In this document: positions 31,226 through 38,921 of the stretch, one piece after another
How positions within the stretch are numbered: position 1 is the stretch's first letter
How the letters are laid out: every line of letters starts with the position of its first letter
Assembly: GCA_016745015.1 (NCBI GenBank)
Contig: JADGDH010000007.1
Coordinates: 1 to 46,233 of the forward strand
Reading direction: 5' to 3'
DNA from: Colwellia sp.
GTDB taxonomy: Bacteria > Pseudomonadota > Gammaproteobacteria > Enterobacterales > Alteromonadaceae
DNA: 46,233 nucleotides
Position numbers and translations under genes: made by a program
Notes under the pieces: model-generated
Told to the model about the DNA's origin: nothing
The model's database searches: none
The model's input: the letters and a program-made list of their open reading frames with translations, nothing else

Positions 31226-32326
31226 TTAGTTATGTTTTATTTGGTGTGATAAAGATGTTAATAAATTAACCACTTCTACACTAGCACTTTCCATTACTGC
31301 TAAGTCTTTAACTGCTTTTGCCATATCGCCTGATTTCATAGATTTTAAGGCGCTTAAACCATAATCATGTACTTGTGCATGAGGTGCATCAAGTTGTTTA
31401 AATGCGCTATAATTAGTGTATTTTTCTGCACCTTCACCTTGAAAATACCATTTTCCTAAGCGGCAATTTTGATGATTGGTAAGATCGTCATTATCATTAT
31501 CAGATACACCTAAGATAGCTTGATAAACTTTTAATTTCCATACTACATGATCCATTTTTACTGTTTGCAAGAAGGCATCTGTAGTTGAGTTGGTAATAAC
31601 TGAATACATATTTTTAGAAACGTTTACGATGTTGTTTGCTGTGGTTTCTATGGTTGTGGTACTTTCATTAATTTCAGTGCTTTTTGTACCAACTTCATGA
31701 ATACCTTCAATAACTTGTTCCATTTGTTGGTTTACTTGCTCTATTAGGCTCGATATCTCATTTGAGGCTTCAGCAGATCTTTGAGCTAAGGTTCTTACTT
31801 CATCAGCAACAACGGCAAAACCACGCCCTTGTTCACCAGCACGAGCTGCTTCAATAGCAGCATTTAGCGCTAATAAATTTGTTTGATCAGAAATACCTTT
31901 AATAATATTTACAAAATCATTAATACCTGCCGTAGCTGATTTTAAGTTATCAACAGAGGTTGAAGCGTTTTGGCTATCACTGCTTATTTTTGTGGTTGCA
32001 ATAATGGTTGAAGCCAACATCGAAATAATATTATTGAACAATGTTTGTGATGATTGAAATTCATCACGGTGTTCAATAAGCTCATTTGATGAAGAGGCAA
32101 GCTCTTCTCGAATATTGTTAACCAAATCGGCAGAACCCAGCCATAAATTATTTATTTCTTCTTGATGGCGATAGCGCTCTGTATTATTTGCCATGTCCTG
32201 CATTAACTGTTGGCTTTCATCGTTAGCATTTGCTACTTCGGTTTCTAATGATGTGAGTTGTTGTTTAAGTTGAATGTTCTCTTTTTGTAATGCAGAGAAC
32301 TCTTCTTTACTTGGCAAGCCAAACAT
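31226..32326 (-). CDS. Soluble methyl-accepting chemotaxis protein with C-terminal CZB-like domain
   Basis: MCP core [39 protein letters not shown]-terminal [10 protein letters not shown]...[10 protein letters not shown]...[11 protein letters not shown]; no TM. Confidence 0.9.
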
Positions 32327-32475: not shown

Positions 32476-33594
32476 TTAAGGGAGTGACATGTATTGTGGC
32501 GTAATTATTTCATCCCCAGCCATTAAACCTGAAATGACAGGAACCATACCATTTTGTTGTGTTTTTCCTAATTGAACAAAGCGTCGTTGAACATCACCTT
32601 TAACATTAAGCCAAACAAAGTCTAATTGACCAACATGAGCAACTTTATCCATGGGAATATTGAGTTTAATTTGTTCACCTGCGGGGATCAACATACGCGC
32701 ATACATTCCAGGCAATAAACTTTTATGATAGGGAATACGCGCTTTAATCAAAAAGCTGCGAGAGCCTGTATTAACTGCAGGTACTATTTCTTCTATTTCA
32801 CCAATTATAGTTTTGTTAACACTAGGTAATTCAATTTCAATGGCTTGACCATGAACTAAAGTTAGTGCTAATCGCTCTCGTACTTGTGCTTCTACTCGTA
32901 ATGATAGTGGGTTGTATAAAGACAGGAGCTTAGCACCTGCTTGTGCGGTATCACCTGGCTCGGCAAATCGGTCAACAATAAGGCCATTGATTGGCGCTGT
33001 TAATGTGGCATAACTTAAGGTGGTTTTTGCTTGGGCTAATGCTTGCTTGGCTGCGGTTAATTCAGCAGCAATACTGTGGTAGTCAGCGCGATTTTTATCT
33101 AAGTCAAACTCTGCAACCAATTGTTTTTTAAATAATTCAGTTGAGCGTTCGAGGTTTTGCTTAGCTTCTTTGTAGCGTGCTTGCAACGCCTTAATGTTTT
33201 GCTTAGCTTGTAATACTTGAGACTGTAAATCGACTTGTTCAAGTTGAATTAATAGATCGCCTTTATTAACTTTATCGCCTGCTCTTATATGAATTGTATC
33301 AATTCGAGCTAAAATTCTTGATGAAATTATGGTTGCTTGTTTTGCTTCAACACTTGCAGCAACAGGCTCAAAAATAGCATTTGTGCTCGCTACTACTTTA
33401 TATGTGCTGTTTTTATCAAAAGCTGTATTACTTGTATTTTTACTATTATTCAACGCAGGCGATACTTTTTCATTAAATGAGCCAGCAAGCCAAGCCACCA
33501 TTAGCAATAAAACGGTTAAGGCGATAACAGGAATAAGTACTTTTTGTGCTGTGCTTTTTTTTACTTTGTCTTTACGTACTTCGCGTTGAGTCAT
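32476..33594 (-). CDS. RND efflux periplasmic adaptor (membrane fusion protein)
   Basis: N-terminal TM, GDKVNKGDLLIQLEQVDL lipoyl motif, coiled coil, TAPINGLIVDRFAEPGDTA; ATGA overlap with the RND gene. Confidence 0.93.
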   Translation of the reverse strand: MTQREVRKDKVKKSTAQKVLIPVIALTVLLLMVAWLAGSFNEKVSPALNNSKNTSNTAFDKNSTYKVVASTNAIFEPVAASVEAKQATIISSRILARIDTIHIRAGDKVNKGDLLIQLEQVDLQSQVLQAKQNIKALQARYKEAKQNLERSTELFKKQLVAEFDLDKNRADYHSIAAELTAAKQALAQAKTTLSYATLTAPINGLIVDRFAEPGDTAQAGAKLLSLYNPLSLRVEAQVRERLALTLVHGQAIEIELPSVNKTIIGEIEEIVPAVNTGSRSFLIKARIPYHKSLLPGMYARMLIPAGEQIKLNIPMDKVAHVGQLDFVWLNVKGDVQRRFVQLGKTQQNGMVPVISGLMAGDEIITPQYMSLP

Positions 33595-36500
33595 AACGTT
33601 TCCTTAGTTAAATATTCGCTTTTGGTTATTGATGGGTCTTGTTTTTTATTGTCAAAAACTAACAAATAAACAATAGGAACAACCAATAATGTAAATATAG
33701 TTGATGAAATAATGCCAAAAATAATAGCAATGGCTAAGCCGCTAAAAACAGGGTCTAGGGTAATAATTAAATTGCCTAGTAACGTAGTGCCTGCTGTTAA
33801 TAAAACAGGACGCATGCGTACAGAACCTGCTTGAATTAACGCTTCTTTAATTGGTTCTCCTTTATCTCGTGCTTGGGTAATAAACTCAATTAAAATTAAC
33901 GAATTCCTAACTACAATACCAGCTAAGGCTATCATGCCTATCATAGCGGTAGCAGTGAATAGCACAGGCTCTGGTGCATTGGCTATTTCACGCTCTCCAA
34001 ATTGATTTAGCATGAAGAAACCAGGCATAATGCCAATAACGGTTAGCGGTATAGCAGACATAATAATTCCAGATAATGCCGCAGAGCCAGTTTGTATTCT
34101 TAATACAAAATAAATAGCAGTTAAAGCAAAGGCAAAAGCGATACCCATATCACGAAATACTCGAATAGTAATGCGCCACTCACCTTCACCACTCCATGAT
34201 AAATTTATATTCTCAGGTAAGTACCAAGTGTTACCACTACCACTGGTTAAAAATGTACGAGTTTTCCAGTCGTTTGATTTAGTGGTCGCGGTGTTGTCTG
34301 CTTGGTCGTTAACTTGGTTATTTATTTTGTGGCTAGTGTAACGCAAGTCGCTGCTAATATCGGCAATGATAGCCGCAGGGGTTCTACCTGATATATCGGC
34401 TGTGACATAAACGACAGGTTTCAAATCTTTATGAAAAATAACTTTATCACTAATGTCTTGTTCAAACTGACCTAGCTCACCAAGGGAAACAAGTGACTGT
34501 GGCGCAATATCAATACCTTGTGGTGTTGTGTTTTGTACAATGCCAGCTTGCCCTTTAATCGTTAATCTATAATAGTCAGAAAGGGTTTCTCGTTGTTCAA
34601 TAGGAAGCTTTATATTGATAGCGAGTGGCGTTGCTTCATCGTTTACATGCAGATAACCTGCAATTTGTCCCATATTCGCTACTGCTAGAGCTTGGTTGAT
34701 ATTTTGAGTTGAAATACCTGATAATGCAGCTTTAGTTTTGTCAGTAACAAAACGTAAACTTGGTTGATTGTTACCAACAGTTGAGTCAACTTCAACAACA
34801 TGAGATTCTTGTTTTAGCCGCTTTTCCACAATACTTGCTGCTTGCTGTAGTTCATTATATTGAGTAAATTCATCTCCATAAAGTTCGGCTACTAAGGTAC
34901 TAAGTACGGGAGGGCCAGGCGGTACTTCAACAACCTTAATATTTATATCGTTTGTTGAGTTAAGAGAAGTGTTTAGTGACTTTAAATGCTCTCTTAACCT
35001 TAAAACAATCGCATGAGATTGGTGCTCACGTTCTGTTTTATCAAGTAATATGATGCGTAAATCAGCCATGTAAGGTGCTGAACGTTGATAATATTGGCGT
35101 ACCATGCCATTAAAATCTATTGGTGACGGTGTGCCAACGTAAGCTGAAATAGCTTTAATTTCAGGTAGTTGTTGTACTTTGTTTGAAACAACTTTTGCCA
35201 TAGCTGCTGTTTGCTCTAAAGTGGCGCTTTCAGGCATATCAATAATAATTTGAACTTCATTTTTATTATCAAAAGGGAGTAATTTAAGCGGTACTAACCG
35301 CATCACGGGTAGCATGGCTGCAATAATAAATAATGCTAAGACTAGCCACAGAACTAATTTTCCTTTTTGTCGATTATCTAATAATGGTGTTAGCATACGA
35401 CGATAAAATTGACTAAAACCTTGGCTCTGTTCTTTTTCTTCGCTTAACTCAACTGCTGATTTAGGCTTGATCAATTTAGAGGCTAACCATGGAGTAACTA
35501 AGAAGGCTACTAAGGTTGAACTGATAACACTAAGTGGTACGTTAAACGCCATGGGAGCCATGTAAGGCCCCATCATGCCAGTGATAAAAGCTAAGGGAAC
35601 AAAAGCGAGTACTATAGTTAACGTTGACATTAATAAAGGCACACGAATTTCGTTAATTGCACCGACAATTTTATCTTGTAGTGAGCCGCTTTTATCTTTT
35701 AAGTAACGTTCAATATTGTCAACGCCAGTAATGGGGTCATCAACGAGTAATCCTAACGAAAGAATTAGTGCGAAAAGTGTTACGCGGTTAATGGTGTAAC
35801 CAAACATTAAATCTAACGATAAGGTGATGCCATAACAAATAGGTACTGCCAAGCCAACAACAACAGCTGAGCGCCAGCCTAAAAATACCGCAATAAAAAC
35901 TACTACGGTAAATATTGCAAAAGCCAAGCTAGTAGTGAGGTTGTTTACTTTTTCATTAGCGGTTTCACCGTAATCACGCAATACCTCAATATGAACATTT
36001 TTAGGAAAAATAGATTGTTGTAGCTCGGATATTTTATCGTGCACAGCTTGTGCTACAGTGACTGCATTACTGCCGCGTTGCTTCGCTACACTAATAGTAA
36101 CGATAGGGTGGTCGCCGTTTTTTATAAGAGAAGAGTTTATAGAAGAAGGTTTTTTAGTCGAAAGGTTTTGAGAATAAAGATCCTCTTGGTGTCCGTTGGC
36201 AAAATCAATCCAAGTATAGCTTGTTGCTTCAGCAGGGCCATCGATTATTTTGGCAATATCTTTTAATAAAACAGCGCTACCATCTATTACGCTAATAGGG
36301 GTTTGTTTTAACGTTTCTATGTCTCTAAAAACATCGCCACTTTCAAGGCGGAAAGACTGGTTTTCTAGTGCCAAATTACCATGGTGTTGTAGAGTGTTTG
36401 AGGCTTGAATTGCATTGAATACATCACTAATAGCTATTTTTCTAGCTGTCATTTGCTCTGGATCTAAATTAACTTGAATTTCTTTTGAGCGCCCACCAAT

Positions 36501-37055
36501 AACATTAACTTCACTGGTATTGTCTATCGCTTGCAAGAACGTAGATACTTCTTCAGCTAATCGGCGTAAATTATAATCATCTATTGTTTTGGTATCACTA
36601 CTCCATAAACCTAACATCACAATAGGCACGTCATCTACTTCTATCGGTTGCACACGCCAGTTACTAACAATTGTTGGAATCTTGTTAGTATTTGAATGAA
36701 GCTTATTATAAGTATTAAGTAATGCTTGCTCACGGTTTTCACCGACATGAAATCGTAACGTTACTACAGCTTTACTATTATGAGTAACTGAATATACATG
36801 TTCAACACCACTCACTTGTGATAACAATTTCTCTAAAGGTGTTGTAACTAATCGCTCAACTTGTTGAACATTTACACCAGGCGCATTGACGACTACATCA
36901 ATCATAGGAACCACAATCTGAGGCTCTTCTTCGCGTGGTGTGTAATTTAATGCCATTATGCCCGCAAACATAGATAAAATTAGAATAATGAAAGGCACTT
37001 TGCTTTCTAAAATGCTACTAAGTATTTTAGAGGTGAAATTAGTTGGAGTCTGCAT
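33591..37055 (-). CDS. RND efflux transporter permease subunit (AcrB/HAE-like)
   Basis: 1154 aa, PREEEPQIVVPMIDVVVNAPG, VDDPITGVDNIERYL, AGIVVRNSLILIEFI, PVLLTAGTTLLG motifs. Confidence 0.95.
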   Translation of the reverse strand: MQTPTNFTSKILSSILESKVPFIILILSMFAGIMALNYTPREEEPQIVVPMIDVVVNAPGVNVQQVERLVTTPLEKLLSQVSGVEHVYSVTHNSKAVVTLRFHVGENREQALLNTYNKLHSNTNKIPTIVSNWRVQPIEVDDVPIVMLGLWSSDTKTIDDYNLRRLAEEVSTFLQAIDNTSEVNVIGGRSKEIQVNLDPEQMTARKIAISDVFNAIQASNTLQHHGNLALENQSFRLESGDVFRDIETLKQTPISVIDGSAVLLKDIAKIIDGPAEATSYTWIDFANGHQEDLYSQNLSTKKPSSINSSLIKNGDHPIVTISVAKQRGSNAVTVAQAVHDKISELQQSIFPKNVHIEVLRDYGETANEKVNNLTTSLAFAIFTVVVFIAVFLGWRSAVVVGLAVPICYGITLSLDLMFGYTINRVTLFALILSLGLLVDDPITGVDNIERYLKDKSGSLQDKIVGAINEIRVPLLMSTLTIVLAFVPLAFITGMMGPYMAPMAFNVPLSVISSTLVAFLVTPWLASKLIKPKSAVELSEEKEQSQGFSQFYRRMLTPLLDNRQKGKLVLWLVLALFIIAAMLPVMRLVPLKLLPFDNKNEVQIIIDMPESATLEQTAAMAKVVSNKVQQLPEIKAISAYVGTPSPIDFNGMVRQYYQRSAPYMADLRIILLDKTEREHQSHAIVLRLREHLKSLNTSLNSTNDINIKVVEVPPGPPVLSTLVAELYGDEFTQYNELQQAASIVEKRLKQESHVVEVDSTVGNNQPSLRFVTDKTKAALSGISTQNINQALAVANMGQIAGYLHVNDEATPLAINIKLPIEQRETLSDYYRLTIKGQAGIVQNTTPQGIDIAPQSLVSLGELGQFEQDISDKVIFHKDLKPVVYVTADISGRTPAAIIADISSDLRYTSHKINNQVNDQADNTATTKSNDWKTRTFLTSGSGNTWYLPENINLSWSGEGEWRITIRVFRDMGIAFAFALTAIYFVLRIQTGSAALSGIIMSAIPLTVIGIMPGFFMLNQFGEREIANAPEPVLFTATAMIGMIALAGIVVRNSLILIEFITQARDKGEPIKEALIQAGSVRMRPVLLTAGTTLLGNLIITLDPVFSGLAIAIIFGIISSTIFTLLVVPIVYLLVFDNKKQDPSITKSEYLTKETL

Positions 37056-37122: not shown

Positions 37123-37428
37123 CTAGACATCTTCACAAAATTGCTGCTGTAAAACGTCTAATAAATATTTGATTTTTGGGTTAGCAATTCGATAATAAAT
37201 TGTTTGAGATTCTCGTCTTGTTGCTACTATTTCGCTTTCTCTTAATTTGGCTAAATGTTGTGAAAGAGCAGACTGCGATAAATCAATCTGTTCATTTAAG
37301 TCACCAACAGTAAGCTCTTTATTAGAAAGGCAGCACAGAACCATTAGTCTATACGGATTAGAAAGTTGCTTAAGAATATCGGCAACTTGTTGAGCACTTT
37401 CAAGTAATTTAGTTTGATCTGTCATCAT
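37123..37428 (-). CDS. ArsR-family repressor (BigR/SqrR/YgaV-like)
   Basis: LSNPYRLMVLCCL, DLSQSALSQHLAKLRESEIVATRRESQTIYYRI; Cys32/33 and Cys98. Confidence 0.9.
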   Translation of the reverse strand: MMTDQTKLLESAQQVADILKQLSNPYRLMVLCCLSNKELTVGDLNEQIDLSQSALSQHLAKLRESEIVATRRESQTIYYRIANPKIKYLLDVLQQQFCEDV

Positions 37429-37583
37429 ATTTAAAAACCACGAACTTTATTCGTTAACTTTATTTAAGTTTACTATTGAACTTTAATTTAGTAAAGGCTA
37501 ATATATCTTAAATAAGGAAAAGTTAAATTAGTAAGCTCTAAATTATTATTTAACACTTTAATATAAATTGTTAGGAGAAGATT

Positions 37584-37781
37584 ATGACAGTCAATGAAGC
37601 ACTTCGTTTAATCGCAGGTACTATGATATTAGTTTCATTAGTGCTTACTCAATTTCATTCGCCCAATTGGATGTGGTTTACTGCTTTTATTGGTGTGAAT
37701 CTTCTACAGTCGTCTATGACTAAATGGTGCTTAATGATGACCATTTTAAAAAAATTAGGTTTAAAAGAAAGTAATGTATAA
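37584..37781 (+). CDS. DUF2892 (YgaP-type TM) protein
   Basis: 65 aa, two TM segments, EALRLIAGTMILVSLVL... CLMMTILKKLGLKE, like the TM half of YgaP. Confidence 0.85.
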   Translation: MTVNEALRLIAGTMILVSLVLTQFHSPNWMWFTAFIGVNLLQSSMTKWCLMMTILKKLGLKESNV

Positions 37782-37871
37782 TGTAGATAAACAAATACAT
37801 AAGCAGGGTTTTACTCGTGCTTATTAGTATGTCAATGTAATAATTATCTTATGTGTTAAATAGGAATACTT

Positions 37872-38216
37872 ATGTTAAAAACAATCCCCGAAATTATTGC
37901 TCATGCAAGACAATCACTTAATACTATTACAGCGGAAGATGCGGCAAAAAAATGTAAGCGTGAAAAAGGTATAATTATTGATGTAAGAGAGCCCGCCGAA
38001 TTTTCTGAAAAAGCAGGGGATAACACGATCAATATTCCGCGTGGATTATTAGAAATGAAAATGCTACAAATGTATCCCGATGAAAACTTGCCTATTTTTA
38101 TCCATTGCGCTACTGGTGCTAGAGCTACTTTTTCAGCAGAGCAACTTAAGCGTGTTGGTTACAAAAATGTCTGGGTTATAACATGTATGTTAGATGATGT
38201 TTGCTGCGTGTTTTAG
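37872..38216 (+). CDS. Rhodanese-like domain protein
   Basis: IIIDVREPAEFSE and active-site loop HCATGARA. Confidence 0.92.
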   Translation: MLKTIPEIIAHARQSLNTITAEDAAKKCKREKGIIIDVREPAEFSEKAGDNTINIPRGLLEMKMLQMYPDENLPIFIHCATGARATFSAEQLKRVGYKNVWVITCMLDDVCCVF

Positions 38217-38258
38217 TTTGTTTTAAGATAACTGTAGTGATATTTTTCTAGGAAATAA

Positions 38259-38921
38259 ATGATGGTTAGTCCTTTAGTTGTTGATTATTATAGTGATATT
38301 TTATGTGTTTGGGCGTGGATAGCTCAACGTCGTATTGATGAATTAAATAAGCAGTTAGGTAATAAAATAGAATTACGCTATCACTATTTAGATGTTTTTG
38401 GCGATGCGGTAAATAAAATACCAACTCAATGGCATGATCGGGGAGGGTATGATGGTTTTTCTACTCATGTGGTTGAGTCAGCTGCTATTTATGAAGACGC
38501 ACATATAAATAGTGATATTTGGTCTAAAACGCGTCCAACCTCTTCTGCTAACCCCCATTTAGTACTTAAAGCTATTGAGTTGACCTACTCATGTAAACAC
38601 AGTATTGAACTAGCATTAAAATTTAGACAGGCTTTTTTTATTGAAGCAAAGGACATCAGTAACTTAGATGTATTATTTGCCATTATTGAACAAGCTGGAC
38701 TAGATAGTGTGCAAGTTAACCAAGCGTTGCTTGATGGAAGAGCTATAGCTGGTTTAATGCGAAATTATCAGCAAGCGAAAGCATTAGCACTAAAAGGCAG
38801 TCCTTCATATATTATCGATAATGGTAGGCAAACCTTGTATGGCAATGTTGGTTATCGAGTATTGTTAGCTAATATTGAAGAACAGTTAACTAAGCCGAGT
38901 AGTGAAGCTAGTTGGTGTTAA
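38259..38921 (+). CDS. DsbA/FrnE-like thioredoxin-fold oxidoreductase
   Basis: DYYSDILCVWAWIAQRRIDEL N-terminus, KGSPSYIIDNGRQTLYGNVGYRVL C-terminus typical of the DsbA/HCCA isomerase family. Confidence 0.85.
   Translation: MMVSPLVVDYYSDILCVWAWIAQRRIDELNKQLGNKIELRYHYLDVFGDAVNKIPTQWHDRGGYDGFSTHVVESAAIYEDAHINSDIWSKTRPTSSANPHLVLKAIELTYSCKHSIELALKFRQAFFIEAKDISNLDVLFAIIEQAGLDSVQVNQALLDGRAIAGLMRNYQQAKALALKGSPSYIIDNGRQTLYGNVGYRVLLANIEEQLTKPSSEASWC

Follow-up and report, generated by a model that had tools for sequence, protein, structure and literature searches.

Does a repressor of the type that senses persulfides control an efflux pump together with a set of sulfur-transfer genes? This question is raised by a 46,233-nt stretch of Colwellia sp. 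DNA (contig JADGDH010000007.1, assembly GCA_016745015.1; the whole stretch is called the window hereafter and all window coordinates refer to it), in which the gene for an ArsR-family repressor is followed on the minus strand by those for a resistance-nodulation-division (RND) permease and its periplasmic adaptor, and in which genes for a DUF2892 protein, a rhodanese and a DsbA-like protein are arranged divergently on the plus strand, across a promoter region of 155 bp. An original prediction, made from the DNA sequence of the window, had placed all of these genes where we find them and had proposed, from this one genome, that the sensor is coupled to the pump; such coupling is supported by conserved synteny, by a dyad located between the divergent units and by loci with an altered gene order in other bacteria. 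In our assessment ArsR is probably a persulfide- or polysulfide-responsive autorepressor of both divergent units, released by reactive sulfur with co-induction of the pump.

Results

ArsR resembles the known persulfide sensors

The only cysteines of ArsR are Cys32, Cys33 and Cys98. Cys33 is variable among relatives; the Cys32 and Cys98 columns are invariant when about 110 relatives are aligned with the reference proteins, NolR being the sole exception, and again in a separate 29-member alignment, and a spacing by chance was ruled out as both columns are invariant. The two residues are 66 positions apart and aligned with the SqrR pair, as had been predicted, no misalignment being seen. The same separation is found in BigR and HlyU; YgaV, which had been expected to share the layout as BigR does, departs from the exact spacing, its pair being 67 apart through one inserted residue.

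In the AlphaFold (AF2) model of ArsR (mean predicted local distance difference test score, pLDDT, 90), Cys32 lies inside the helix of residues 25-34 (α2) and Cys98 just past the helix of residues 84-97, at the end of α5. A cysteine pair in α2 and α5 is the feature by which the persulfide-sensing ArsR cluster was defined (PMC10509353), and the pair found here occupies these positions in alignment with the known sensors. Foldseek placed HlyU, BigR, NolR and SqrR in the top ranks for this model, the nearest solved proteins by sequence include the same four and YgaV, and an ArsR/SmtB winged-helix fold was indicated alike by Pfam (HTH_5), AF2 and Foldseek. ArsR has no CxC metal site, because its only other cysteine is Cys33. 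Judged from sequence and modelled fold, ArsR is a member of the known persulfide-sensor group (SqrR/BigR/HlyU/YgaV; cluster 4 of the sequence similarity network in PMC10509353). Within this group HlyU reacts with glutathione persulfide to form a tetrasulfide and loses DNA binding, and H2O2 gives no reaction (PMC10509353). A mass shift of +62 Da has been reported for HlyU. The closest ArsR is that of Colwellia sp. C2M11 (86% identity), and a search of the source genome with the window protein returned one match.

An operator-like dyad is conserved between the divergent units

The intergenic regions between arsR and the DUF2892 gene were collected from RND-linked loci and duplicates removed (n=27). 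The dyad TTAG-N6-CTAA was present in 25 of them, with 41 sites in total, and dinucleotide shuffles of the same regions yielded a mean of 0.35 and a maximum of 3 dyads. When spacers of 2 to 11 were scanned in the 27 regions, the TTAG and CTAA halves were found at spacer 6 only. Many loci have the dyad in duplicate or triplicate, at intervals of about 25 bp, and in most loci the copy nearest arsR precedes the start of that gene by 61-86 bp and lies over a possible -35 element. The two dyads of the window, O1 and O2, are the only matches to WTTAGN6CTAAW in the 46 kb; O1, proximal to arsR, matches the longer consensus better than any other site genome-wide and covers the putative -35 element of the arsR-RND unit.

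The core TTAG-N6-CTAA was also detected at most 200 bp upstream in 38 of the 74 relatives not scored as RND-linked, among them GC-rich Alphaproteobacteria and some DNA of 46-60% G+C, and is therefore a property of this type of regulator. It agrees with the box published for NolR, (A/T)TTAG-N9-A(T/A) (PMC12445080), and a near match, TTAGAGTTTACTTAAT, is located just upstream of ygaV, at which the YgaV footprint lies near the promoter (PMC9774250).

Genome-wide scans did not define a regulon. The loose dyad WTTAGN6CTAAW gave 81 sites against 21 in a reversed control, too many to call, and the long consensus with up to three mismatches gave 57 matches against 32, mostly noise after the first few. 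Consensus matches at C12 and C222 were discarded as lying in or near unrelated genes. A three-mismatch site a short distance ahead of a periplasmic rhodanese gene (C173, L111) coincides in part with the end of the gene before it.

ArsR and the RND pump are linked within the family

The permease is of the AcrB (HAE) type, with an ACR_tran domain, a VDD proton-relay motif and an adaptor gene alongside; its scores with multidrug models exceed those with heavy-metal models, the pump is most similar to multidrug exporters, and the adaptor resembles the CusB and CzcB types. We surveyed 199 genomes of the GTDB family and compared the ArsR/RND places by hand. RND homologues of at least 49% identity were present in 28 genomes, and in 26 of the 28 they were preceded, in the same orientation, by the gene for a SqrR-type ArsR: in 20 directly beside it, mostly within 75 bp, and in six across a gap of 320-390 bp, which holds DUF2892 in the one looked at (L173). 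The two exceptions (G188 and G178) are surrounded by sulfur-transport genes: they stand beside DUF6691/YeeE-like genes, and L177 also has DUF2892, rhodanese and TauE genes. Among RND homologues of 34-40% identity (25 genomes) at least one, in G032, is adjacent to ArsR, in the order arsR-membrane fusion protein (MFP, adaptor)-RND. On an ArsR tree of 107 sequences, built from a short protein and with many unresolved forks, RND linkage corresponded to 7 label changes, as compared with 26.9 in shuffles.

One locus of another kind was observed in G031 (L175 996-6863), where a SqrR-type ArsR is divergent from genes for an MMPL exporter, a LolA-like protein, an unknown protein, DUF2892 and a rhodanese; MMPL is thereby a second kind of exporter found in this gene context.

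Rearranged versions occur in other bacteria

In Salinivibrio an FAD oxidoreductase-DUF2892 unit is divergent from ArsR-RND-MFP with two dyads in between, and in Aeromonas caviae, where one dyad is present, DUF2892 is divergent from an ArsR gene that is followed by MFP and RND. In Nitratireductor ArsR and a DUF2892-MFP-RND unit diverge, and Paracoccus denitrificans has sulfur transferase and YeeE-type genes, ArsR and then DUF2892-MFP-RND. The order in Sphingomonas is rhodanese-MFP-RND-ArsR, with an FAD/NAD(P) oxidoreductase and DUF2892 alongside; the ArsR of that run is without the canonical second cysteine. Two Pseudanabaena plasmids (L179 991-6678 and L180 714-6678) carry rhodanese, MFP, RND and DsbA-like genes in one run without ArsR, which in L179 adjoins cytochrome bd genes and an FAD oxidoreductase.

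The DUF2892, rhodanese and DsbA-like proteins

The DUF2892 protein, in which a WC motif is conserved among relatives, matches the C-terminal, transmembrane half of YgaP (BLASTP E 1e-7). The rhodanese gave no BLASTP match to YgaP and has only the Pfam family in common with it; orthology was rejected for want of a match, and the two genes here are separate rather than fused. Thus, where the DUF2892 and rhodanese genes had been described as the two halves of E. coli YgaP, the transmembrane half aligns, the rhodanese half does not, and the correspondence is one of architecture.

The DsbA-like protein has LCVWAW instead of CxxC, with a single active-site cysteine, and ends in EASWC. Both the active-site and the C-terminal cysteine are invariant in eight relatives, the SWC end was seen in all seven loci inspected and in the cyanobacterial copies, and in a class-wide search most matches reach the last residue. 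Assignment as a classical DsbA oxidoreductase was rejected on the CVWA sequence with its single cysteine; a model of modest confidence (pLDDT 69) matches YjbH, FrnE, DsbM and kappa glutathione S-transferase (GST). The C-terminal SWC could be a sulfur-carrying arm. The type with C-[VI]-W-A and a C-terminal SWC was encountered in Gammaproteobacteria and Cyanobacteria.

Candidate targets away from arsR

In G079 three dyads at an exact 25-bp spacing (L176 2245-2319) precede a rhodanese-DsbA operon with neither ArsR nor RND nearby, suggesting regulation in trans, by a cooperative array. An OsmC-like gene of the source genome (contig C127:4777-5166; L135 1059-1451) has a perfect dyad, ATATTAGTTTTAACTAATAT, about 50 bp upstream, and TTAG-N6-CT(A/C)A was found about 40-66 bp upstream of the gene in all ten readable orthologues. 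On these sequence matches, the OsmC-like gene is a candidate second target of ArsR.

Layout of the locus

The features are listed in Table 1. An Rfam search of the region found no element. A CZB-domain chemoreceptor gene occurs near arsR, on either side, in several Colwellia (L034, L036, L037, L040 and L048), and persists in Colwellia loci even where the RND genes are missing.

Table 1. Features of the arsR-RND region of the window.
Feature	Position	Strand	Basis
ArsR-family repressor, 101 aa, SqrR/BigR/HlyU type	37123-37428	-	Pfam HTH_5, alignment, AlphaFold, Foldseek
Operator-like dyad O1, minus-strand ATATTAGCCTTTACTAAATT, core TTAG-N6-CTAA	37485-37504	.	Motif counts, consensus scan
Operator-like dyad O2, minus-strand AATTTAGAGCTTACTAATTT	37525-37544	.	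40 bp from O1, DUF2892 side
DUF2892/YgaP-like_TM (PF11127) protein, 65 aa, transmembrane	37584-37781	+	Pfam, BLASTP to YgaP
Single-domain rhodanese (PF00581), 114 aa, active-site loop HCATGARA	37872-38216	+	Pfam
DsbA-family protein (PF01323), cytosolic type (FrnE/kappa-GST-like), CVWA and C-terminal SWC	38259-38921	+	Pfam, alignment, model
RND permease, 1154 aa, AcrB/MexK-like, VDD proton-relay motif	33591-37055	-	Profile models, motif
RND periplasmic adaptor (RND_mfp), overlapping end of permease gene	32476-33594	-	Profile models
Chemoreceptor with a methyl-accepting chemotaxis protein (MCP) signal domain and a zinc-binding CZB domain; possible extra member, weak association	31226-32326	-	Domain matches

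Discussion

In the mechanism we favour, a reduced ArsR dimer would occupy the TTAG-N6-CTAA operators in the divergent promoter region and shut off both units, that of arsR, permease and adaptor, presumably co-transcribed, and that of DUF2892, rhodanese and the DsbA-like protein. Rising levels of reactive sulfur would lead to a polysulfide bridge between Cys32 and Cys98 and take the dimer off the DNA, and upon derepression the sulfur-transfer and thiol-handling proteins would be made along with the RND pump, whose cargo may be a thiol conjugate, a toxic form of sulfur or some other compound accumulating in that state. More tentatively, and with considerable doubt on our part, the rhodanese, permease, adaptor and cytosolic DsbA-family protein might form a dedicated module for the export and repair of reactive sulfur and thiol persulfides that extends from Cyanobacteria to Pseudomonadota and is under SqrR-type control in many of the latter, in which case this RND subfamily would naturally transport a reactive sulfur species or its conjugate.

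Several observations weigh against regulation by ArsR as proposed. The protein scored 97.4 bits with the BigR equivalog model (NCBIfam NF040642), below the cut-off of 155 bits, and is therefore a member of the group and not BigR itself. The exact dyad is missing in 2 of the 27 loci, its conservation is not wholly independent because most of the sequences and loci are related by descent, and the -35/-10 promoter assignment is weak. Five class-wide RND homologues (51-59% identity) have no adjacent ArsR, by which a universal ArsR-RND linkage is ruled out, and the RND homologues of Flammeovirga and Roseibium have no sulfur neighbours; the pump family is therefore not tied to the sensor everywhere.

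A dithiol repressor could also control both units in response to another thiol-reactive agent, such as an organotin, hypochlorite, an electrophile or disulfide stress, in which case the pump would export a xenobiotic and the sulfur genes would repair thiols. PMC9774250 cites an earlier report that ygaVP, under the close relative YgaV, is derepressed by tributyltin, and both the likeness of the pump to multidrug exporters and the CZB zinc-binding chemoreceptor downstream would suit such a signal; the neighbours, however, are sulfur-transfer genes, with sulfide:quinone oxidoreductase-like, TauE and YeeE-like genes in relatives, and we regard this explanation as unlikely. Alternatively, ArsR might control only itself and the DUF2892-rhodanese-DsbA operon, the RND genes having their own promoter and being neighbours for other reasons, as the RND homologues without such an ArsR and two Colwellia loci that keep ArsR without RND (L037 and L048) would allow. 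Since 26 of the 28 close homologues in the family begin a short way downstream of arsR, mostly within about 75 bp and in its orientation, and other gene orders unite RND with DUF2892 or rhodanese in a single run, we consider a separate RND promoter very unlikely. A metal or arsenic sensor driving metal efflux, to which the ArsR/SmtB fold and the CusB/CzcB-like adaptor might point, is already disfavoured and can be largely set aside, as cysteines 32, 33 and 98 leave no CxC site in α3, the nearest relatives are persulfide sensors, and the VDD-containing permease fits multidrug models better than heavy-metal ones.

The proposed persulfide-responsive control resembles known systems in part. SqrR of R. 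capsulatus, BigR of X. fastidiosa and HlyU of Vibrio share with the window ArsR the fold, the 66-residue spacing, the DNA-binding core (38-46% identity) and sulfur-transfer genes nearby; unlike in these, the presumed transcription unit of the repressor itself carries an RND permease and adaptor, and the dyad TTAG-N6-CTAA differs from the ATTC-N8-GAAT deduced for SqrR. The E. coli ygaV-ygaP pair likewise combines the same type of sensor with rhodanese activity and a YgaP-type transmembrane protein, but as one operon with one fused protein and no RND, and the window rhodanese cannot be aligned to YgaP. NolR of Sinorhizobium is similar in its DNA-recognition region and in a box that fits the dyad, but lacks both cysteines. 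Sulfane sulfur is a signal on MexR of Pseudomonas and MarR of E. coli, repressors of antibiotic-resistance genes that belong to the MarR family and are unrelated to the window ArsR. We know of no sulfur genes as partners in the MexR and MarR systems. In passages of a 2025 survey, RND pumps are named among the likely targets of two-cysteine, sulfane-sulfur-responsive ArsR regulators, and neither an operator nor partner genes nor a function of the pump is given in these passages (PMC12423496). From these passages and the MexR/MarR findings, a link between sulfane sulfur and RND pumps is therefore already known in outline. Our literature search found no paper combining RND, DUF2892 and ArsR, and as far as the literature was searched, what is new is the putative operator, the identity of the partner genes, the form of the module in Cyanobacteria and the candidate OsmC target.

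In E. coli, sulfide raises antibiotic tolerance in a YgaV-dependent manner (PMC9774250). A conserved unit in which a persulfide-type repressor has its promoter region and operators in common with an RND pump would represent a direct, testable link between sensing and efflux, the dyad provides a concrete putative operator for regulon searches, and sulfur species become a candidate class of natural cargo for an uncharacterised RND subfamily. The arrangement, found also in other bacteria, suggests that cells switch on a pump as reactive sulfur accumulates.
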